Positions 10,428-59,988 of a stretch of 64,000 nucleotides of DNA are shown here, piece after piece. Each line of letters opens with the position of its first letter. Positions within the stretch are counted from its first letter, which is position 1. The stretch is from an uncultured Anaerolineae bacterium (GTDB lineage Bacteria > Chloroflexota > Anaerolineae > Anaerolineales > Villigracilaceae). A program made the position numbers and the translations under genes. The stretch lies in the NCBI GenBank assembly GCA_903875215.1, contig CAIQVH010000038.1, positions 1 through 64,000 on the forward strand, given 5' to 3'. The notes beneath the pieces were generated by a model. That model ran no database searches. It saw only the letters and a list, made by a program, of their open reading frames with translations, and was not told the origin of the DNA.

Positions 10428-10658
10428 ATGGAACGAATTATTGTTAATCCAAACATCCATTTTGGCAAACCAGTCATCAAGGGCACACGAATCACCGTCC
10501 AGAACGTGCTGGAGTTGATTAACGAAGGTTTGACCTTTGAACAAATCATCCGTGATTATTATCCCGATTTGAAAATCCAGGATATTCACGCCTGCCTGCA
10601 ATATGCCATCGCGCTGGTGGCGGCAGAAGATATTCACATTTCATCGGTAGCGGCATGA
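10428..10658 (+). CDS. DUF433 antitoxin
   Basis: A 76-residue protein starting at the Met of MERIIVNPNIHFG; the ribosome site AAAGAGGTGA sits about 8 bp upstream and decides this start over the Met at 10401. The DUF433 pattern is clear: 'NPxIxxGKPxIKGTRITVxxVLELI' followed by 'I..YP.L...DI.ACL.YA'. Members act as DNA-binding antitoxins paired with PIN-like DUF5615 toxins, and the next gene is exactly that, overlapping in an ATGA. The complex probably represses its own promoter. Confidence 0.85.
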   Translation: MERIIVNPNIHFGKPVIKGTRITVQNVLELINEGLTFEQIIRDYYPDLKIQDIHACLQYAIALVAAEDIHISSVAA

Positions 10659-11011
10659 AGTTTTTGCTCGACCAGGATGTGTACGCCGTGACCGTTCGTT
10701 TTTTACGGGAAAGCGGGCATGATGTTGTGACGGCATCTGAATTGAACCTGTCTCGCGCCAAAGATGCCGAATTGCTCAAAACCGCGGCAAAAGAAAACCG
10801 AATTTTTATCACCCGCGATCGGGATTATGGCAATCTCGTCTTTGTGCATGGCGCAGGAAGTGGTGTGATTTATCTCCGTATGTTGCCATCCAGTATGGTG
10901 GATGTCCATGCCGAACTAAAAAAGGTGCTGGAAACCTATCGCGAAACGGATCTGGCAACGTCATTTGTGGTGGTTGAGCAAAAGCGCCATCGCATCCGGC
11001 GCATAGAATAA
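10655..11011 (+). CDS. DUF5615 PIN-like toxin
   Basis: A 118-residue protein with the DUF5615/Mut7-C-like pattern: an N-terminal MKFLLDQDV (acidic pair), a central 'A..E.RIFITRDRDYGNLVF' with the second acidic cluster, and a C-terminal strand. These residues form a PIN-type nuclease site that would cut RNA. It is translationally coupled to the DUF433 antitoxin through a 4-bp overlap. The pair is a common mobile toxin-antitoxin module. It converges on yoeB, with a hairpin between them. Confidence 0.85.
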   Translation: MKFLLDQDVYAVTVRFLRESGHDVVTASELNLSRAKDAELLKTAAKENRIFITRDRDYGNLVFVHGAGSGVIYLRMLPSSMVDVHAELKKVLETYRETDLATSFVVVEQKRHRIRRIE

Positions 11012-11017
11012 ACAACC

Positions 11018-11043
11018 AGCCCGTTTTCACTCGAAAACGGGCT
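11018..11043. terminator. Bidirectional terminator hairpin
   Basis: AGCCCGTTTT at 11018-11027 pairs with AAAACGGGCT at 11034-11043 around a 6-base loop, between the convergent DUF5615 and yoeB genes. The A/T pairs at the loop end and the ATTT tail support weak termination in both directions. Confidence 0.6.
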
Positions 11044-11061
11044 GAAATTTAGAATGGCGGC

Positions 11062-11077
11062 GTAGGGTCGCCCCTAC
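11062..11077. repeat. Short GTAGGG(T)CGCCCCTAC palindrome
   Basis: GTAGGGTCGCCCCTAC overlaps the last codons of yoeB. It is a compact member of the GGGGCGACCC repeat family found four times in this window. Confidence 0.5.
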
Positions 11078-11343
11078 TTGCTATAATGATAGCGGGCCTG
11101 TAAAAAATCGATGCGTTCCTCGCGCACAAGATAAACAATGCGATGCTCCTGCGTCAACCGCCGCGACCAGCAGCCCGGAGCGATGTATTTGAGCGGTTCA
11201 GGCTTGCCAATCCCATCGAATGGATCGCGCAGGATGGCGTCAATCAGTTCAAAAACACGTATCGCCAGCTTACGGTCGGTTTCCACCCAGTAGCGCAAAT
11301 CCTCGATAAACTCCGGCTGGAAAACCGCCTCACGCTTTTTCAT
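11074..11343 (-). CDS. yoeB: Txe/YoeB family toxin (mRNA interferase)
   Basis: An 89-residue RelE-fold ribosome-dependent mRNA endonuclease. The C-terminal half has the YoeB pattern 'G.PEPLKYIAPGCWSRRLTQEHRIVYLV' and ends ARYHYSK; the His-Tyr pair near the end is the catalytic signature of YoeB. Length is normal. It overlaps the antitoxin gene by 14 bp in the usual antitoxin-first order. A truncated copy lies at 10284-10382. Confidence 0.9.
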   Translation of the reverse strand: MKKREAVFQPEFIEDLRYWVETDRKLAIRVFELIDAILRDPFDGIGKPEPLKYIAPGCWSRRLTQEHRIVYLVREERIDFLQARYHYSK

Positions 11344-11617
11344 CCAGCCCCACTTGACGGCGTAAATCTTCTGGACTTTGGGATTGTCCCTCGTTTTTCA
11401 ACGCCCGCCCCAGCGCCGAGAGCAGCCTTTCGGCATTTTCCGGCGAGCGCAGCAGGTAGGCGCTCTCGGTCAGGCTGGCGAGTTCATCGGCAGAAATCAT
11501 GGCAACATCCTCGCCGCCGCGCCGGTGAATGATAACAACCTCGCGGTCTTGCGTTACCCGGTCAAGCAGGCTGGCAAGCTGCTCACGGGCGCTGGAGTAG
11601 GTGAATTCAATGGTCAT
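11330..11617 (-). CDS. yefM: YefM/Phd family antitoxin
   Basis: A 95-residue antitoxin starting at the Met of MTIEFTYSSAREQLASLLDRV. AAAGGAG just upstream supports this start over the Met at 11671. The N-terminal Phd/YefM fold binds DNA and dimerises, and the acidic, flexible tail (ending GLDEKA) wraps the toxin. It precedes yoeB in a bicistron. Two TGTACA operator cores lie 15-33 bp upstream of the start, fitting autorepression. Confidence 0.9.
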   Translation of the reverse strand: MTIEFTYSSAREQLASLLDRVTQDREVVIIHRRGGEDVAMISADELASLTESAYLLRSPENAERLLSALGRALKNEGQSQSPEDLRRQVGLDEKA

Positions 11618-11631
11618 AAAGGCTCCTTTTC

Positions 11632-11650
11632 TGTACAGGAATACTGTACA
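11632..11650 (-). promoter_or_regulatory. Candidate YefM operator: two TGTACA cores
   Basis: TGTACA occurs at 11632-11637 and 11645-11650, spaced 13 bp centre to centre, within the promoter region of yefM. From recall of the E. coli system, YefM binds adjacent palindromes with the same TGTACA core about one helical turn apart, so the match in sequence and spacing is notable. Confidence 0.65.
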
Positions 11651-11714
11651 ATAAAAGAGAGAAAATGTCAAGAAACGGTCTCATCCCATCGATCAACAAG
11701 AAAGTTAAGACTTC

Positions 11715-12638: not shown

Positions 12639-13283
12639 ATGGCTAAAAAAGCCGAAAGCATTTTGATTAAACTTGCCATTTTCATCCTTTTCTGCGCGGT
12701 TGGCATCGCAATCGGCTTCGCGGCGGCTGGATATTGGACAAATCTGAACCATTCGGGCGCGTTCGTCAAGTGGCAACTGCTGGATAGCCCGCTAAAATTC
12801 AAGCACCTGGTGGCTACCAGCGCCAGCGAAATTTGGGCTTACGCCGAAGACGGGTCCTTCTACATGTACAAATCCGATTTTTGCAACGACACCCCCGGAA
12901 AAACTTGCGGCCAATGGTTGGAACTGGACCCGGAAAGCGAATTCGGCCCCGAAATGAAAAAGCTGATCCGTTCTGGCTGCGAGGCCGTTTACGATTATTA
13001 TTCGGTTGAATCCAGGTACCCGCCCCAACCGGAAGCCAGCCCGACTGAATGTGCCATTACGCAAACGAATGATCCGTTTTTTGGCACAACAACACTAACT
13101 TATTATGTCCTGCTGGATAACGGCAAAGTCTGGATGTGGAAACACAAACCAGATATCGAAAAAGAAATCATCTTATCTTTATTCATAAACTTGAGTGGAT
13201 TGATTCTTGGAATTATCGTTTGGTTTATTTTCCGCCAGAAATTCGCGCATTTCATCGATAAACATTTAGGAGTAACCCAATGA
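12639..13283 (+). CDS. Hypothetical two-helix membrane protein
   Basis: A 214-residue protein I do not recognise. A first membrane helix spans about residues 8-32 and a second about residues 175-197, with an extracytoplasmic domain of about 140 residues between. That domain contains four or five Cys (for example CNDTPGKTCG and a lone CEAVYDYY), which could form disulfides. The C-terminal residues LGVTQ are encoded by the metH ribosome-binding region, and its stop overlaps the metH start (ATGA). The natural C-terminus may therefore have been replaced when this segment landed here. It is flanked by direct repeats of the metH 5' end. Confidence 0.5.
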   Translation: MAKKAESILIKLAIFILFCAVGIAIGFAAAGYWTNLNHSGAFVKWQLLDSPLKFKHLVATSASEIWAYAEDGSFYMYKSDFCNDTPGKTCGQWLELDPESEFGPEMKKLIRSGCEAVYDYYSVESRYPPQPEASPTECAITQTNDPFFGTTTLTYYVLLDNGKVWMWKHKPDIEKEIILSLFINLSGLILGIIVWFIFRQKFAHFIDKHLGVTQ

Positions 13284-16200
13284 CCCCTCGCACCTACACC
13301 AACCGCCGCTACCTCGATGCCATCGAAAAGAAAGTCCTCGTTTTCGATGGCGCGATGGGCACCAGCCTGCAAAACCAGCATCTCACCGCCGAGCATTTTG
13401 GCGGCGAAAAATACAACGGATGCAACGACTTCCTCGTCATCTCGTATCCCGAAGCCGTTGAAAAAGTCCACCGCTCGTTTATGGAAGTCGGCGTGGATGT
13501 GCTGGAGACGGATACATTCCGCTCCAACCGCCTGACGCTGGGCGAATACGGCCTGGGCGAGCGCACCAACGAAATCAACGTGGCCGCCGCATCCCTCGCC
13601 CGCCGCGTAGCGGATGAATTCGCCGCCAAGACTGGTCAGGCGCGCTTTGTGGCGGGCTCCATCGGCCCCTCCGGCAAACTCCCCTCCGCCGATGATCCCG
13701 AACTCTCGAACATGCAATTCGACGAACTGGCCGACATTTTCCGCGAGCAGGCCGTCGGCTTGATTCAGGGCGGGGTGGATGTGATTCTCATCGAGACATC
13801 GCAGGACATTCTCGAAGTCAAGGCTGCCATCCACGGCGTAACCAAAGCCTTCGCCAAGACCGGCGTCTGGCTGCCGATTCAGGCCCAGGTCACGCTCGAC
13901 ACCAGCGGGCGCATGCTGCTTGGCACCGATGCAGACGCCACCATCGCCATCCTCGAAGATTTGCCGATTGATGTCATCGGCCTGAACTGCTCCACCGGCC
14001 CGGAGCACATGCGCGAGCCCATCCGCATCCTTGGCGAAGGCACGCGCCTGCCGGTTTCGTGCATCCCCAACGCCGGGCTGCCGCTCAATGTCGATGGTCA
14101 GGCCGTCTACCCGCTGGAGCCGGAGCCGTTTTCAGCGGCGCTGGTCGAATTTGTCACCAAAAATAACATTTCCGTGGTCGGCGGCTGCTGTGGAACAACC
14201 CCCGCCCACCTCGAACTTCTTGTCAACAAACTACGCAACACGCAACACCCCCCTCGCCCCGACTCCGGCCTTCCACGCCTCGCATCGGGCATCAAGGCGA
14301 TGAACATGCAGCAAGACCCCGCGCCCTTCCTGATTGGCGAGCGCTGCAACGCCCAGGGCAGCCGCGCTTTCAAACGCCTGCTGCTGGCCGAAGATTGGGA
14401 CTCCGTCCTGACCGTGGCGCGCGACCAGGTCGATAACGGCGCGCACGGGCTGGATATTTCGGTGGCGGTCACCGAGCGCGGCGACGAGCCGTTCCTGATG
14501 CGGCAGGTGGTGCGCAAGCTGGTCACGGCGGGCATCGACCTGCCGCTGGTCATCGACACGACCGAAGTGGACGTGCTGGAAGTGGCGCTCAAAACCGCGC
14601 CGGGGCGCTGTCTCATCAACTCGACCCATTTCGAGTCGGGCCGCGCCAAAGCCGACAAGATTTTCGCGCTGGCGAAGGAGCACAACGCCGCCGTCATCAT
14701 CCTGACCATCGACGAAGCAGGCATGGCCAAGACCCGCGAGCGCAAGCTGGAAGTGGCCCAGCGCATCTACGATGTGGCGGTCAACGAGCACGGTCTGGCC
14801 CCATCTGCGCTGGTGTTCGACGACCTGACCTTCACCCTCGCCACCGGCGACCCGGAATTTTCCGCGTCTGCGATTGAAACCATCGAAGGCATCCGGCTGA
14901 TTAAGCAATCCCTGCCCGGTGTGCTGACCTCGCTGGGCGTCTCGAACCTGTCCTTTGGTCTCTCGGCCAACGCCCGCCCGACCCTGAACTCGGTCATGCT
15001 CTACCACTGCGTCAAAGCCGGGCTGGATATGGCCATCGTCAACCCCGCGCACATCAAACCCTACAGTGAAATCCCCGCCGACGAAAAAGAACTGGCCGAA
15101 GACCTGATTTTCAACCGCCGCCCCGATGCGCTCCAGCGCTATATCGAGCACTTTGAAGGCAAAACCGAAAATACCAGCAGCGCCAAAGCCGACCCCACCG
15201 AAGGCATGACCGTCGCCCAGCGCCTGCACTTCCGCATCCTGGCGCGCTACAAAGATGGCATCGAAGCGGATGTGGATGAAGCAATAAGCTCCCTCACCCC
15301 TAACCCCTCTCCCGAAGGGAGAGGGGAACTGCTCCCTTCCCCCACCGGGGGAAGGGTTGGGGATGAGGGCGAACCTCGCCATTACAATCCCCGTCTCCCT
15401 GAAGAACTCAAAGAACGCATTCGCGGCCTTCGCAAAAATGCCACCGATGCCGAATCTTTCCTCTGGCACATCCTCCGCAACCGCGCCTTCCACGACGCCA
15501 AATTCCGCCGACAGCATCCTGTCGCTGGCTATATCCTCGATTTTTATTGCCACGAAGCCAAATTCGCCATCGAACTGGACGGCAGCCAGCACAACGAAGA
15601 TGAACAGGTCAAATATGATGAAGAACGCACCCAAATTCTGCGCGAACAGCACGGAATTCAGGTTATTCGTTTTTGGAATAGCGACCTGCTCAACAAAACC
15701 GAGGAAGTTCTCAATACGCTCTGGGAGATTCTCGACGAGCGCCTCGCTCCCTCATCCCCGGCCCTTCCCCCGCAGGGGGAAGGGAGCAATCCCCATCTCC
15801 CCCCGGGAGAGGGGTTAGGGGTGAGGGCGCGTTCCCAACACGAAGCCGCCGTCCACGTCCTCAACACCGTCCTGCTCCCCGCCATGAAAGAAGTCGGCGA
15901 CAAATTTGGCGCGGGCGAACTCATCCTGCCTTTCGTGCTCCAATCCGCCGAAGTGATGAAAAAAGCCGTCGCCCACCTCGAAACCTACCTTGAGAAGGTC
16001 GAAGGCGTCACCAAGGGCACCGTCGTGCTCGCCACCGTCTACGGCGACGTGCACGACATCGGCAAAAACCTGGTCAAAACCATCCTCGTCAACAACGGCT
16101 ACACCGTCATCGACCTCGGCAAACAGACCCCCGCCGAAACCATCATCAGCAAAGCCGTAGAAGTCAACGCCACTGCCATCGGCCTTTCCGCCCTGCTCGT

Positions 16201-17323
16201 CAGCACCTCCAAACAGATGCCGCTCATCGTCAACGAACTCCAGCGCCGCGGACTGAAATTCCCGGTGCTCATCGGCGGCGCGGCCATCAACCGCCGCTTT
16301 GGCCGCCGCATCCTGCAAACCGAGGACGGCAGCTTCTACGCGCCCGGCGTTTTCTACTGCAAAGACGCCTTCGAAGGCCTCGAAACGATGGACAATCTCA
16401 TCGACGAGCAAAAACGCCCCGCCATGCTCGAACAACTCCAAAAAGATGCGGATATGGAACTCGGCCGGACAACCGCCAAACCGGAAAACCGGTCAACCGG
16501 TCAACGAAGTTCAATCGCCCCGCAGCCGATTTCGCTCCCGAACAGTATTTCCTTTGGCTGGAAACTTGTCCGCGCCATGCCGCTCGAGATGGTTTTCCAG
16601 CACCTGAACATCAACGAACTCTACCGCCTGTCCTGGGGCGCCAAAAACACCCACGGCGACGAGTGGACCAAGCTCAAAGCCGATTTCGACGCCCGCCTCG
16701 ACAAAATGAAGCGCGAAGCCCTCAAAACCGGCTGGCTCAAACCGCAAGCCGTCTACGGCTACTTCCCCTGCCAAGCCGATGGCGATAACCTGATTATCTA
16801 CAATCCCCAATCGCCAATTACCAATTACCAGGAACTGACCCGTTTCCACTTCCCCCGCCAACCCTACGACGAACACCTCGCCCTCAGCGACTACTACGCC
16901 TCGGTCGACTCCGGCAAAATGGATGTGGTCGCCTTTCAGGTCGTCACTGTCGGCCTGGAAGCCACCGAAAAATTCGACAAACTCCAGGCCGCCGGCGACT
17001 ACTCTGAAGGCTACTTCACCCACGGCCTCGCCGTCCAGACCGCCGAAGCGACCGCCAACTACCTGCACGAGCACATCCTCCGCGAGCTGGGACTCCCCGC
17101 CGGGCAGGGCAAACGCTACTCCTGGGGCTACCCCGCCATCCCTGAGCTGGAAGACCACCGCAAGGTCTTCGACCTGCTGCCAGTCGAGAAAGAGCTTGGG
17201 ATGCAGTTAAGTCCCGCTTACCAGCTCATCCCCGAACAATCCACCGCGGCGATCATCGTCCACCATCCGCAGGCCAAGTATTACAGCGTCGGCGAAAGCC
17301 GCGTAGAACAGTTGATGCGCTGA
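13280..17323 (+). CDS. metH: Cobalamin-dependent methionine synthase MetH with in-frame DUF559 insertion
   Basis: A 1347-residue enzyme that moves the methyl group of 5-methyltetrahydrofolate to homocysteine through cobalamin. In order: homocysteine domain (about 10-320; zinc ligands Cys237, Cys303 and Cys304 in GLNCS and GGCCG), pterin-binding domain (about 335-620), the start of the cap domain (to about 670), an inserted segment (671-850), the rest of the cap (about 853-905), the B12 domain with DVHDIG (His925 would be the cobalt ligand), and the C-terminal reactivation domain with RYSWGYPAIP. Without the insert the length is about 1168, near normal. The insert keeps the frame and sits in a loop of the cap. 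AGGAG precedes the start. Confidence 0.95.
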   Translation: MTPRTYTNRRYLDAIEKKVLVFDGAMGTSLQNQHLTAEHFGGEKYNGCNDFLVISYPEAVEKVHRSFMEVGVDVLETDTFRSNRLTLGEYGLGERTNEINVAAASLARRVADEFAAKTGQARFVAGSIGPSGKLPSADDPELSNMQFDELADIFREQAVGLIQGGVDVILIETSQDILEVKAAIHGVTKAFAKTGVWLPIQAQVTLDTSGRMLLGTDADATIAILEDLPIDVIGLNCSTGPEHMREPIRILGEGTRLPVSCIPNAGLPLNVDGQAVYPLEPEPFSAALVEFVTKNNISVVGGCCGTTPAHLELLVNKLRNTQHPPRPDSGLPRLASGIKAMNMQQDPAPFLIGERCNAQGSRAFKRLLLAEDWDSVLTVARDQVDNGAHGLDISVAVTERGDEPFLMRQVVRKLVTAGIDLPLVIDTTEVDVLEVALKTAPGRCLINSTHFESGRAKADKIFALAKEHNAAVIILTIDEAGMAKTRERKLEVAQRIYDVAVNEHGLAPSALVFDDLTFTLATGDPEFSASAIETIEGIRLIKQSLPGVLTSLGVSNLSFGLSANARPTLNSVMLYHCVKAGLDMAIVNPAHIKPYSEIPADEKELAEDLIFNRRPDALQRYIEHFEGKTENTSSAKADPTEGMTVAQRLHFRILARYKDGIEADVDEAISSLTPNPSPEGRGELLPSPTGGRVGDEGEPRHYNPRLPEELKERIRGLRKNATDAESFLWHILRNRAFHDAKFRRQHPVAGYILDFYCHEAKFAIELDGSQHNEDEQVKYDEERTQILREQHGIQVIRFWNSDLLNKTEEVLNTLWEILDERLAPSSPALPPQGEGSNPHLPPGEGLGVRARSQHEAAVHVLNTVLLPAMKEVGDKFGAGELILPFVLQSAEVMKKAVAHLETYLEKVEGVTKGTVVLATVYGDVHDIGKNLVKTILVNNGYTVIDLGKQTPAETIISKAVEVNATAIGLSALLVSTSKQMPLIVNELQRRGLKFPVLIGGAAINRRFGRRILQTEDGSFYAPGVFYCKDAFEGLETMDNLIDEQKRPAMLEQLQKDADMELGRTTAKPENRSTGQRSSIAPQPISLPNSISFGWKLVRAMPLEMVFQHLNINELYRLSWGAKNTHGDEWTKLKADFDARLDKMKREALKTGWLKPQAVYGYFPCQADGDNLIIYNPQSPITNYQELTRFHFPRQPYDEHLALSDYYASVDSGKMDVVAFQVVTVGLEATEKFDKLQAAGDYSEGYFTHGLAVQTAEATANYLHEHILRELGLPAGQGKRYSWGYPAIPELEDHRKVFDLLPVEKELGMQLSPAYQLIPEQSTAAIIVHHPQAKYYSVGESRVEQLMR
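15291..15369 (+). repeat. Left 79-bp arm of the metH element
   Basis: A compound palindrome with two internal stems (CCCTCTCCCGAAGGGAGAGG and CTTCCCCCACCGGGGGAAG), opening CCCTCACCCC and ending GGGGATGAGGG. It is nearly the same sequence as the solo copy in elp3, which differs by a 3-base deletion and some substitutions. Confidence 0.85.
15749..15827 (-). repeat. Right 79-bp arm of the metH element (inverted copy)
   Basis: The reverse complement of the left arm, with 70 of 79 positions identical. It ends GGGTGAGGG at the junction with the MetH cap-domain coding sequence. Confidence 0.85.
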
Positions 17324-19264: not shown

Positions 19265-21112
19265 ATGAACAAATTCCTTTCCCTGCTCGCAAATTCCACC
19301 CCGCTGCTGGCCGATGGCGCCATGGGGACGCTGCTCCATACTCACGGCGTGGAACACAGTCACTGCTTCGACGAACTCAATCTCACCGCCCCGGCCCGCG
19401 TGGCCGATGTCCACCGTCAATACATCGAAGCAGGCGCGCAAATCATCCTGACCAACACCTTTGGCGCGAACCGCTTCAAACTCACCCGCCACGGACTGGA
19501 GGGCCAACTGACGGAAATCAACCGCGCCGGGGTGGAACTGGCGCGCCGCGTGGTCAGCGCCTCCTTCAAGGATGTGCTCATCGCCGGCGATATCGGCCCG
19601 CTTGGCGTGCGGATCGCCCCCTACGGGCGCGTCCAGCCGCTCGAAGCGCGCGAGGCCTTCGCGGAGCAGGTGCGGGCGCTGGCCGCCGCCGGGGTGGATT
19701 TAATCGTCATCGAAACCATGACTGATCTCTATGAAACGGTCGAAGCCATCCACGCCGCCAAAGCCTTCAACAATATCCCCGTCGTCGCCACGATGACCTT
19801 CACCCGCGACGACCGCACCCTGCTGGGCGACGAACCCGCCAAGGTAGCGCTGGCCCTGCGCGAGGCCGGCGCAGATGTGATCGGCGTCAACTGCTCCGGC
19901 GGCCCGGCCCAGCTCATCCGCATCCTGCGCCAGATGCGCCAGGCCGCGCCCGATGCCCGTTTGTGGGTCAAGCCCAACGCCGGCTGGCCCGAACACGTCG
20001 GCGGGCGCGTGATGTACGCCGCCGCGCCCGAATATTTTCGCGATTATGTGCTGGAATTCTGGAAAGCCGGCGCAAACGTGATCGGCGGATGCTGCGGCAC
20101 CACGCCCGAGCATATCGCCGCCATGCGAAAAACGCTGGATACCGCCCCGGCGGTGACGGTCGAACCCGTCAGCGTGGTCGCCGCCAAATTGACGGATAAC
20201 GAACCCGCCGAAGCTCCCTCCGAGCTGGCGCAGAAACTGGCCGCCGGGAAATTTGTCTACGCTGTAGAGATGGATCCGCCCCGCGGCCTGGCCACCCAAA
20301 AACTGGTGGCGGCTGCCTCGCTGCTCAAGGAATCCGGCGCTGACGTGATCGACGTGGCCGACAGCCCGATGGCGCGCATGAGAATGTCGGCCTGGGCAGT
20401 TTGTGATGTCATCCAGCGCCGGGTGGGCATTGAAACCACCCTGCACTTCCCCACGCGCGGGCGCAATCTCCTGCGCGTGCAAGGCGACCTGCTGGCGGCG
20501 CACGCCCTCGGTCTGCGCAACATCTTCGTTGTGATGGGCGACCCGACCTCGATTGGCGATTACCCCGAAGCCACCGACAACTACGATCTGGTTCCCTCCG
20601 GCCTGATCAAGCTGATCAAGCAGGGCTTCAATACCGGCGTGGATCACTCCGGCACCTCCATCGGCCAGCCGACCAGCTTTTTTGCCGGTTCCGCGCTCAA
20701 CTTGTGCCCGCCGGATGTTGAAGCCGAGATCAAGAACCTGAAACGCAAGCTCAAAGCCGGGGCAGACTTTTTCCTGACCCAGCCGATCTACGAACCGGAG
20801 ACGGCCAAAGCCTTCCTCGATCAATTTGCCGAAAGCAATGGCGCGCCGCTGGAAAAACCCGTGCTGGTCGGCATCCTACCGCTTGTCAGCGTGAAACATG
20901 CTCACTTCCTGCAAAACGAGGTGCCGGGGATTGTGATTCCCGAAGCCAGCCTGCAGCGGATTCAAAAAGCCGGTGAAACGGCCTCCGCTGAAGGCGTGAA
21001 AATCGCCGTCGAATTGATCCAGAAAATAAAAGCCTGGGGCCAGGGCGTCTATCTCATGCCGCAGTTCCACCGCTACGACGTGGTGGCGGAGATTATCGAA
21101 AGTTCAAAGTAA
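19265..21112 (+). CDS. Bifunctional homocysteine S-methyltransferase / methylenetetrahydrofolate reductase
   Basis: A 615-residue fusion. Residues about 1-290 are a homocysteine methyltransferase domain with the zinc ligands in GVNCSGG and GGCCGT. Residues about 325-610 are a methylenetetrahydrofolate reductase TIM barrel (EMDPPRG near its start, then DVADSPMARMRM, MGDP, and FFLTQPIYE). This layout is the YitJ type. One half makes 5-methyltetrahydrofolate and the other uses a methyl donor to make methionine, so with MetH close by the locus covers the methyl branch of one-carbon metabolism. It begins only 3 bp after the membrane glycosyltransferase. Confidence 0.92.
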   Translation: MNKFLSLLANSTPLLADGAMGTLLHTHGVEHSHCFDELNLTAPARVADVHRQYIEAGAQIILTNTFGANRFKLTRHGLEGQLTEINRAGVELARRVVSASFKDVLIAGDIGPLGVRIAPYGRVQPLEAREAFAEQVRALAAAGVDLIVIETMTDLYETVEAIHAAKAFNNIPVVATMTFTRDDRTLLGDEPAKVALALREAGADVIGVNCSGGPAQLIRILRQMRQAAPDARLWVKPNAGWPEHVGGRVMYAAAPEYFRDYVLEFWKAGANVIGGCCGTTPEHIAAMRKTLDTAPAVTVEPVSVVAAKLTDNEPAEAPSELAQKLAAGKFVYAVEMDPPRGLATQKLVAAASLLKESGADVIDVADSPMARMRMSAWAVCDVIQRRVGIETTLHFPTRGRNLLRVQGDLLAAHALGLRNIFVVMGDPTSIGDYPEATDNYDLVPSGLIKLIKQGFNTGVDHSGTSIGQPTSFFAGSALNLCPPDVEAEIKNLKRKLKAGADFFLTQPIYEPETAKAFLDQFAESNGAPLEKPVLVGILPLVSVKHAHFLQNEVPGIVIPEASLQRIQKAGETASAEGVKIAVELIQKIKAWGQGVYLMPQFHRYDVVAEIIESSK

Positions 21113-58281: not shown

Positions 58282-59949
58282 TTACAGGTCCTTCACCAGG
58301 TAAAGTTCTCCGCGGCTAAAGCCGCGATCCAGGTAGTATTGGCGCGTTCCGACCGCCGAAATGACCGCCAGCCGCCTGAAACCGCGCGCGCGCGCGGTGT
58401 CTTCGGCCTGTTGCAGCAGGCGGGTTCCCAGGCCAATATGCTGGGCCGCGCCACTGCCCTCCACGCCAACCGGCAACGACTGGCCATAGACATGCACTTC
58501 GCGGATCAGCGCGGCACCTTCCAGGTCAGCCAGGCCGGTGGCGGGAGCCGCGGCGGTAGGCAGGGAAAGGCGGATAAATCCGGCTACGTGGTCGGTGGGG
58601 GTGACGAAGGAAAGGAAATGTTCCTCGGCGCAGGCGGCGGCGTAGGTCAGGTCGTCCAGGCGCAGGGTGGGGGCTTGCACCTGCGTTCCGCGCACTTCGC
58701 GGCAGCGCAGGCAGTTGCAGTGCGTCCCGCGTTTTTTCATCTCGGCGTGAATATCCTGCCGCAGGCTGGTGCGTTTGTTGCCTTCGACGACGTTGGTGGA
58801 CGGGATGTCCCGAATGACACGGTTGATGCGGCAATAGCGCGGGACGGTCGGTTTGATGTCAGCGATCAGGTCAATCAGCTGGGCGGTAGTGTACGGTTGA
58901 AACTGGCCGCGCTGCCAGACTTCGTACAGTTCGGCGTTGGCGAGCAGTTGATTGGGGTAAATTTTGATCTCGTCGGGGCAGAAATCCGTCCACAGGCGGG
59001 CAAAATCGAGACGGTCGCTTTCGGGGCTGGCGCCGTGCAGGTTGGGCATCCAGTGCAGGACGATCTTGAATCCGGCGGCACGCAGCAATGCCACGGCCCG
59101 GCGCGTGGCGGCCACGTTGTGGCCGCGCTTGTTCATCTCAAGGATGCGGTCATCCAGGCTTTGCGCGCCCATCTGCACCTTGGTGACGCCTAGGTGGCGC
59201 AGCCAGGCCAGTTCGCGGGGCGTGATTTCGTCGGGGCGGGTTTCGATGACCAGTCCCACGTTGCGATGCGGGGCGGTTTCGTTGAGGGCCTGGGCGGCGG
59301 CCAGGTCGCCCTCACCCGTACTCCCTCTCCCGGTGGGCGAGGGGAACTCCCTTCCCCCTTGGGGGGAAGGGTTGGGGATGAGGGTTTCGTTCATCGCGTC
59401 AAAACAGCGTTTGATGAACCATTCCTGGTAGTCGCGGCGGTAGGCGCTCCAGGTGCCGCCCAGGATGAGCAGTTCTATTTTATCGGTCGGGTGGCCGAGG
59501 TTTTCGAGCGCTTCGAGGCGCGAGCGCACCTGGGTGTAGGGGTCAAAGTTATGTTCCAGCCCGCGCATGGCGCCGGGTTCGTCGGGCAGGTAGCTTTTGG
59601 GCATGCGCACATCGGTTGGGCAGAAAATGCACTTGCCGGGGCAGGGATAGGGCTTGGTCAAAACGGTGACAGTGGTTACGCCTGAAAGAGTACGCACCGG
59701 CTTCATGCGGATGCGTTCCAACAAGCCGGGATCCGGTTGAATGACCCCGCTGGCCGTCATCTCGTGATAGGCAGCCACCAGCGCCGCCTTGGAGAGCACC
59801 TGCCCCCCCGGCTGCGGATGTTCGCGCAGGGCGTCCATCGGATCGGCGCCATGAATGACATCATCCAACACGATTCGCGCAACGCTGAGTTTTTGCGGCG
59901 TGAGGGTATTTTGCTGTCTCCAGCGCTGTTGGCGTTCGGAAAGTTCCAT
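58282..59949 (-). CDS. Elp3-type radical SAM/GNAT tRNA-modifying enzyme with in-frame repeat insertion
   Basis: A 555-residue Elp3 homologue that builds the cm5U-type modification at U34 of tRNA. The radical-SAM Cys motif is in PYPCPGKCIFCP (Cys103, Cys107, Cys110), with DVRMPKSYLPDEPGA and FDPYTQVRSRLEAL downstream. ETRPDE and HNVAATRRAV follow. The C-terminal domain (about 420-555) is a GNAT acetyltransferase ending with HIGLGTRLLQQAEDTARARGFRRLAV-type strands. Residues about 189-214 are encoded by a palindromic repeat placed in a loop after CFDAMN. Otherwise it is normal length. Confidence 0.92.
   Translation of the reverse strand: MELSERQQRWRQQNTLTPQKLSVARIVLDDVIHGADPMDALREHPQPGGQVLSKAALVAAYHEMTASGVIQPDPGLLERIRMKPVRTLSGVTTVTVLTKPYPCPGKCIFCPTDVRMPKSYLPDEPGAMRGLEHNFDPYTQVRSRLEALENLGHPTDKIELLILGGTWSAYRRDYQEWFIKRCFDAMNETLIPNPSPQGGREFPSPTGRGSTGEGDLAAAQALNETAPHRNVGLVIETRPDEITPRELAWLRHLGVTKVQMGAQSLDDRILEMNKRGHNVAATRRAVALLRAAGFKIVLHWMPNLHGASPESDRLDFARLWTDFCPDEIKIYPNQLLANAELYEVWQRGQFQPYTTAQLIDLIADIKPTVPRYCRINRVIRDIPSTNVVEGNKRTSLRQDIHAEMKKRGTHCNCLRCREVRGTQVQAPTLRLDDLTYAAACAEEHFLSFVTPTDHVAGFIRLSLPTAAAPATGLADLEGAALIREVHVYGQSLPVGVEGSGAAQHIGLGTRLLQQAEDTARARGFRRLAVISAVGTRQYYLDRGFSRGELYLVKDL
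59309..59384 (+). repeat. Solo 76-bp palindromic repeat in the Elp3 gene (same family as the metH element arms)
   Basis: It opens CCCTCACCCG and ends GGGGATGAGGG. Against the left arm of the metH element it shows one 3-base deletion and a handful of substitutions. The host gene reads it on the complement as IPNPSPQGGREFPSP, without a stop. No DUF559 core is present, so this is the minimal element. Confidence 0.88.
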
Positions 59950-59988
59950 TGGGTAATAGGTAAAGGGTATTCGGTCTTCGAAGCCCGA

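Follow-up and report, generated by a model that had tools for sequence, protein, structure and literature searches.

Inteins reside in frame within essential genes and leave the host protein by splicing. In REPIN–RAYT systems, inverted palindromic pairs are dispersed through the genome, and the same units flank the gene of a cognate nuclease, a HUH Y1 (TnpA-REP) transposase. Here we describe a locus that shares features with both. In a 64,000-nucleotide stretch of DNA from an uncultured Anaerolineae bacterium of the family Villigracilaceae (assembly GCA_903875215.1, contig CAIQVH010000038.1, positions 1–64,000; the whole stretch is hereafter the window), the gene for cobalamin-dependent methionine synthase, metH, carries in frame a 537-bp element in which a DUF559 nuclease domain lies between two inverted repeat arms. 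As in REPIN–RAYT systems, inverted palindromic pairs are dispersed in the genome and also flank a candidate cognate nuclease gene. In contrast to them, the nuclease is PD-(D/E)XK/Vsr-like and not HUH Y1, the repeats are triplex repeats, and copies sit in frame in essential genes. With inteins and the Vsr-fold homing endonucleases of the EDxHD family (I-Bth0305I; family described in PMC6083498) the element shares in-frame residence in essential genes, occupation of the same site in many species, sporadic occurrence and a similar nuclease fold. It differs from inteins in that a splicing domain was not found in the insert and the passenger appears to stay between repeat-encoded linkers.

The repeats resemble a motif already described. 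The TM motif (37 nt) has 23 copies in E. coli K-12, of type A (loop TTA) or type B (loop CCG), and the five inverted TM pairs of that genome always join an A with a B (Holder et al. 2015, PMC4666352). TM or PIT repeats were reported in more than 260 genomes, E. coli among them, and single-stranded TM_ECO forms a triplex in vitro, while a stable triplex in vivo was unsupported (PMC4666352). According to the same paper, TM_ECO is always intergenic and no mobility activity was found nearby; the words endonuclease and DUF are absent from its main text. The hairpin with a mirror third strand, the TTA and CCG loops and the inverted A+B pairs are common to the TM/PIT repeats and to those studied here; the difference is that here the repeats flank DUF559 genes and sit in frame within genes. 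Rickettsia palindromic elements (∼150 bp) are likewise palindromic repeats in frame in unrelated genes (PMC10969869), whereas the element described here encodes a nuclease and occurs in several phyla; the word endonuclease is absent from the available text of that review. As for the nuclease, the YcjD profile finds Vsr (PMC1189080), and Caulobacter VsrA, which has DUF559, is a predicted mismatch-repair endonuclease on which the SOS response of cells without a cytosine methylase depends (PMC12907096). The window nuclease belongs to the same Vsr-like family, for which the available passages of these two papers draw no link to triplex repeats, mobility or residence in genes. In the titles, abstract openings and passages of the open-access literature searched, we found no link of DUF559 to these repeats (the string GGGAGAGGG included).

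We read the insert as one copy of a selfish mobile element made of a nuclease and its repeats, neither REPIN–RAYT nor intein, with a probability of roughly 0.6. The evidence lies in the composition of the insert, the association of nuclease and repeats, in-frame residence, constraint on the nuclease and partly discordant histories at one site. We place the system outside REPIN–RAYT and inteins because it has no Y1 gene and no splicing domain, and we rate it as new as a whole while built of known parts.

Composition of the metH insert

The metH gene (13280–17323, plus strand) is a stop-free open reading frame (ORF) of 1347 aa that matches TIGR02082, and its frame runs unbroken through the element (15291–15827, plus strand; 537 bp, i.e. 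179 codons), as stated in an earlier note made from the sequence. That note had also described two inverted 79-bp arms, 89% identical, around a complete DUF559 domain in a loop of the cap domain. We found the arms identical at 70 of 79 positions, and on one side their outer 24 bp match perfectly. The DUF559 domain between them (PF04480; 15407–15733, plus strand) was matched by profile search at aa 710–817 of the full-length window MetH (3.1e-32), with its conserved residues present. The cap-domain profile B12-binding_2 is split by the insert, only positions 24–74 of 74 matching after it, which is consistent with the proposed loop, and S-methyl_trans, Pterin_bind, B12-binding and Met_synt_B12 are matched at the profile level on either side. 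The Pfam search at E 0.001 returned from the insert DUF559 and MTES_1575 only and no self-splicing (HINT) domain, and identity with an intein was rejected on this ground.

The two arms are near-palindromes in their own right, identical to their own reverse complements at 60/79 and 52/79 positions, and each is formed by an inverted pair of triplex units. A unit is built of a tail (CCCTCACCC), a hairpin (CCCTCTCCC-n-GGGAGAGGG or a variant) and a mirror third strand such as GGGTGAGGG. Arm 1 (15291–15369), which encodes LTPNPSPEGRGE...GDE in the metH frame, joins a type A unit with second loop TTA on the minus strand (15291–15326; CCCCTCTCCC-TTC-GGGAGAGGGG-TTA-GGGGTGAGGG) to a unit with second loop TTG on the plus strand (15334–15369). 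Arm 2 (15749–15827), an inverted copy of arm 1, joins a type B unit with second loop CCG on the minus strand (15749–15784) to a type A-like unit with second loop TTA on the plus strand (15792–15827), the last recognised from its letters. Three of the four half-arms pass the triplex finder; the fourth has a stem mismatch and gives no hit. Arm 2 is thus a TTA plus CCG pair and arm 1 a TTA plus TTG pair, a near variant of the A+B pairing of TM. The arms are inverted pairs of the TM intrastrand-triplex motif, and their folding into a triplex is predicted.

The earlier note had described the arms as inverted to each other. Because each arm is near-palindromic and matches both strands, they are copies of a dispersed repeat and not an inverted repeat private to this element, with solo relatives elsewhere in the genome (54 matches to the arms in the bacterium's own genome, both strands counted and partial ones included). 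The note's reading of an element was supported in part; it had not recognised in the arms paired units of a triplex repeat that is already known and widespread, and it had missed the clade-specific repeat variants, the standalone copies with their own ATG and the partly homing-like histories at one site that are described below. The arms were also said to be open on both strands; two frames per strand are open, i.e. four of the six and not all. In the window they encode a Pro/Gly/Ser-rich peptide.

An arm-like repeat pair without a nuclease lies at 59309–59384, in frame in a minus-strand radical-SAM ORF (58285–59988). In the same genome, solo repeats were in frame in profile-matched ORFs at 7 of 15 sites inspected, among them alaS, a radical-SAM protein and ATP-binding cassette (ABC) transporters. 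We read unit pairs without the gene as a dispersed, non-autonomous form of the element (REPIN- or MITE-like). In annotated proteins, DUF559 'fusions' and tracts of the 'LTPNPSPxGRGE' type may be mobile-element sequence and not domain architecture. Two similar ABC ATPases of this genome (L003 and L015) carry a solo repeat at the identical in-frame site.

The nuclease domain retains the E, D and E-x-D-G-x-x-H residues conserved in 55 aligned sequences: E18, D47, E58, G61 and H64 are present in 55/55 and D60 in 54/55, and the window copy has all of them. The AlphaFold2 (AF2) model of the domain has a predicted local distance difference test score (pLDDT) of 92.6, and Foldseek matched it to NGO0050 (3hrl, 4e-7) and to the homing endonuclease I-Bth0305I (3r3p, 3.6e-4); Vsr itself (1vsr) was a weak match (E=0.19), and ranks 4–6 were mitochondrial ribosomal proteins. 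On this model the window DUF559 has a Vsr-like PD-(D/E)XK fold and is a predicted endonuclease. An AF2 model of the metH linker with the insert (12 sequences, pLDDT 54.6) was set aside.

The earlier note had allowed for an assembly error behind the insert. In favour of such an artefact, the window comes from a 38-contig draft genome, and many comparison genomes are metagenome bins. However, the insert recurs, diverged in sequence, in other assemblies (in one case on a 1.16-Mb contig, G073), and DUF559 also lies in hosts of named isolates (Nitrosomonas nitrosa, Methylococcus capsulatus, Luteimonas, Stagnimonas). Since the same insert occurs in other assemblies, we rejected an artefact, which we regard as barely conceivable. 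The note had further asked whether orthologous MetH proteins are without the insert. Among the 27 aligned metH loci (41 genomes searched) six, the window's own included, carry a DUF559 insert at the window's site.

Association of DUF559 domains with triplex repeats

We analysed 201 genomes of the order. Among the matches listed, PF04480 occurs in 101 of them, and 143 distinct near-full DUF559 domains were collected from a part of the listed hits, of which 127 have 200-bp and 124 have 300-bp flanks. Five of the 143 come from genomes of relatives outside the 201; without them the set is 138 domains, 122 with flanks. The upstream flank matched the inverted downstream flank at 59 of 127 domains (46%), compared to 3.3% in shifted windows (n = 2342) and 11.6% in mispaired flanks (n = 629). 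Standalone DUF559 genes showed such a match in 27% of cases (n = 88), other genes at the same loci in 2.7% (n = 222). A triplex motif was present in at least one 200-bp flank of 104/127 domains and in both flanks of 50/127, while 15 of 1175 control windows had one; in the order sample alone the numbers were 99/122, 46 and 15/1109, and the motif was found at 76/97 standalone and 23/25 embedded copies. Given a purine-stem hairpin, the third strand was present in 80% of DUF559 flanks vs 15% of controls.

A similar picture emerged across phyla from the best 80 loci, which were chosen by similarity to the metH-type nuclease and include Anaerolineales, Gallionella, Nitrosomonas, Methylococcus, Acinetobacter, Nevskia, Luteimonas, Kapabacteria, Nitrospirae, Phycisphaeraceae and others. 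Inverted flank matches, for which 79 loci were used, were found at 20 of 21 Chloroflexota loci (11 of which repeat the first set; shifted controls 2.0% of 511) and at 48 of the 58 others (vs 5.5% of 1545 shifted controls). After leaving out the 11 repeated Chloroflexota loci and those with short flanks, 60 of 64 loci had a triplex motif, 46 in both flanks, against 20 of 826 control windows. The earlier note had considered that DUF559 genes elsewhere might be unlinked to such arms; the link is far above controls, in other phyla too.

The same co-occurrence data would fit a different role for the nuclease: DUF559 could be a Vsr-like repair nuclease that resolves triplex or hairpin repeats or stalled forks and is kept for cell protection, the repeats spreading by slippage or another agent. 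The prediction that Caulobacter VsrA is a mismatch-repair endonuclease, together with its SOS link (PMC12907096), and the purifying selection on the embedded domain speak for this role. It leaves unexplained why the nuclease lies between matching inverted repeats at many unrelated loci, why nuclease and host trees conflict at one site and why the domain resides in essential genes, and we consider it unlikely.

The repeat variants differ by DUF559 clade, with clades A and B and the repeat classes assigned by eye along the DUF559 tree: class A goes with the metH/valS clade, other variants with the uvrA clade, and class B (CTCCCCCA..TGGGGGAG) with a clade whose members are mostly standalone. The 16 genomes that have clade-A DUF559 contained a median of 30 class-A hairpins and the remaining 185 a median of 0 (p=5e-5 by within-family permutation, the lowest value that the test can give), and the result was unchanged after subtracting four hairpins per clade-A genome. 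Within families, class A showed no association with clade B (p=0.16). Before flanking copies were subtracted, class B was associated with clade B (p=1e-4), with no such association for clade A (p=0.81).

These counts also bear on the possibility that a Y1 transposase mobilises the arms as REPINs of the ordinary kind, with DUF559 as cargo. The arms do resemble REPINs in consisting of inverted palindromic units, Y1_Tnp is found in 146 of the 201 genomes, and class-A counts rise with Y1_Tnp presence too (p=0.008), a correlation that also tells against our own reading. In a joint fit of the class-A count with family terms, t was 5.0 for DUF559 and 1.5 for Y1. With the same script, a triplex motif was found within 300 bp of 0/20 Y1_Tnp (RAYT-type) loci, hand-chosen with weight on genomes that have class-A repeats and including two with flanks cut by contig ends, vs 104/124 DUF559 domains. 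The three Y1 loci of the bacterium's own genome have no arm match better than E=0.098. Moreover, of the 45 genomes in which class-A hairpins number ten or more, 3 gave no Y1_Tnp hit; genomes G087 and G215, with 54 and 65 class-A hairpins, gave none. Because the Y1 loci examined lack the triplex motif and some repeat-rich genomes gave no Y1_Tnp hit, we strongly disfavour transport of DUF559 as RAYT cargo. One own-genome Y1 transposase gene (L089, C14:18349-21693) has different repeats of its own (GGGCTTCAGCCCG on both sides), which suggests that this genome has two or more repeat systems.

Residence within genes and site histories

Thirty-eight of the 143 domains are located in ORFs of 200 aa or longer. 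Of the 69 non-repeated loci among the best 80 across phyla, 52 have the domain in an ORF of 250 aa or longer; for loci outside Chloroflexota the figure is 42 of 58. Host genes were named by profile for the long ORFs scanned, which are a subset. In-frame hosts are metH, valS, metG, leuS, hrpA and HMG-CoA reductase, and uvrA carries another DUF559 clade in frame (two loci by profile, four more by eye). The proposal of the earlier note that the element is adapted to sit inside essential genes fits these copies in valS, metG, leuS, uvrA and others. Further hosts are a DUF1156 protein and Mur-ligase proteins, which we take to be cyanophycin-synthetase-like. Copies that stand alone between genes and have an ATG of their own are likewise common. 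Counted non-redundantly, an in-frame ATG occurs within 30 codons upstream in 14/90 embedded vs 99/122 standalone copies. As most embedded copies have no nearby ATG, they are probably read as part of the host protein. This suggests that a whole folded nuclease can be carried unspliced by housekeeping enzymes (methionine synthase, valyl-, methionyl- and leucyl-tRNA synthetases and UvrA), and that selfish genes have in unspliced residence one more way of occupying essential genes.

Many of the DUF559 hosts are restriction-modification genes (HsdM, HsdR, HsdS, Eco57I/MmeI-like, N6_N4 methylase and type ISP), which could mean that DUF559 is fused to its hosts as a defence nuclease and that restriction genes are its real niche. 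However, DUF559 is found equally in metH, valS, metG, leuS, uvrA, hrpA and HMG-CoA reductase, and nuclease-free solo repeats lie in frame in alaS and ABC transporters. A restriction or defence module is therefore an improbable explanation.

On the metH host tree, built with the insert removed, 20 occupied, 5 repeat-only (labelled so by eye) and 16 empty alleles are interleaved, and the occupancy requires 10 changes, nine of them forced by well-supported branches. The metH-borne nucleases do not form one clade (approximately unbiased test, p-AU 0.003): one groups with metG inserts and one with an HMG-CoA reductase insert. Of ten host groups tried, the nuclease data rejected seven (p-AU 4e-6 to 0.03). 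Such discordant histories are what homing or repeated lateral replacement would leave, and we regard them as partly homing-like. An argument from the first FastTree of clade-A DUF559, in which loci L123/L124 were placed far from L030/L212, was dropped since a careful tree joins them.

At valS we compared 12 genomes from a single family: four carry the insert, G069 has an apparent repeat remnant, two were not read by the motif, and five linkers are without insert or remnant, three of those with unrelated short inserts. Short repeat-like inserts of this unrelated kind (for example QSLVTSPQSLV and STTYQSTNYQ) occur in the metH linkers of G022 and G012 and in the valS linkers of G044, G090 and G106. 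The loops may therefore be hot spots for several repeat types.

The embedded DUF559 has a ratio of nonsynonymous to synonymous substitution rates (dN/dS) of 0.12, compared to 0.09–0.115 for the host and 0.47–0.63 for the arms, indicating purifying selection on the nuclease; the nuclease value comes from 48 of 190 pairs (median dS 2.1), the others being saturated or unusable, which lessens its weight for our reading. A low dN/dS would also be seen if the domain were domesticated, i.e. gave MetH a new activity and were kept for that, and the presence of the insert in many members of one family points the same way. We consider domestication highly improbable: the insert is absent in close relatives, it has more than one origin at the metH site, and the same domain occurs in unrelated hosts.

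Two further features of MetH proteins were observed. In the window, a second low-complexity stretch (CCGGACAACCGCCAAACCGGAAAACCGGTCAACCGGTCAACG) lies in metH at 16463–16507, between the B12-binding and activation domains, and resembles another in-frame repeat insertion. A gammaproteobacterial MetH (L239, Stagnimonas aquatica) carries DUF559 elsewhere than the window's, also between the B12-binding and activation domains.

Proposed mechanism and the E. coli ycjD locus

Movement of such an element could proceed as follows. The nuclease would recognise the repeat, perhaps as a folded single strand or a triplex at replication forks, and would cut or nick it. Repair from a nuclease-bearing copy would then fill sites that are empty or contain only the repeat (homing), and new solo repeats might arise where repair goes astray. 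Residence in an essential gene would provide expression and make imprecise loss costly, as for inteins. Nothing would be spliced out; the flexible arms may let the host protein tolerate a folded passenger. In its widest form, the proposal is a class of selfish elements across phyla, in which a Vsr-fold nuclease targets triplex repeats, spreads them and homes unspliced into essential genes, with TM/PIT repeats as its non-autonomous offspring and ycjD as the E. coli remnant of the autonomous form; for this we see the odds as even.

Several results weigh against the reading of the insert as a mobile element. Repeat binding, cleavage and movement of the element are all inferred from sequence; the earlier note had presented movement of the repeats by the nuclease as an inference, and so it stays. 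A target-site duplication was not established, a near-identical empty allele was not found and the flanking linkers vary; among the genomes compared, no within-species gain was caught. The one-clade test for the metH-borne nucleases becomes borderline without locus L064 (p-AU 0.0499). Three of the ten host groups, the window's own among them, agree with the nuclease tree, and the conflict seen in the rest was obtained on ∼111 columns with groups that are partly nested and were chosen after seeing both trees; recombination could be the cause of it. No triplex motif was found at 23 of the 127 DUF559 domains. The specificity of class B has p=0.024 with one flanking copy per gene subtracted and is lost with two (p=0.37), and of the 45 genomes in which class-A hairpins number ten or more, 6 gave no DUF559 hit, three of these being 62–80% complete. 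Finally, when GTG and TTG are counted along with ATG, a start codon lies within 30 codons upstream in 58/90 embedded copies (117/122 standalone), and these embedded copies may therefore be translated separately.

The reading names DUF559 as a candidate partner of TM repeats, a question that can be tested in E. coli K-12 through its DUF559 gene, ycjD. There, half a motif lies at the stop codon and a full motif ∼170–200 bp beyond, and these are the only triplex place in the 10 kb of K-12 scanned. In strain TC_EC10 the motif at the ycjD stop looks complete by eye in the alignment. At least 80% of the ycjD stretch is held by 3365 of 5426 E. coli genomes. Strain ATCC 25922 is without ycjD at the locus and has an efflux gene cluster there instead, as reported for eef-positive E. 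coli lineages (PMC12817139); because the cluster occupies the locus, this strain does not provide a clean empty allele. Upstream of ycjD in K-12, directly at its start codon (L306, 4755–4835), we observed a long AT-rich palindrome (CACCTCATTCTGACA...TGTCAGAATGAGGTG) that is unlike the triplex motif.

Elsewhere in the window, the ORF at 19265–21112, downstream of metH, encodes a protein whose N-terminal part is homocysteine S-methyltransferase-like and 39% identical to MetH aa 19–315. Small adjoining ORFs at 10655–11671 resemble toxin–antitoxin genes by eye.

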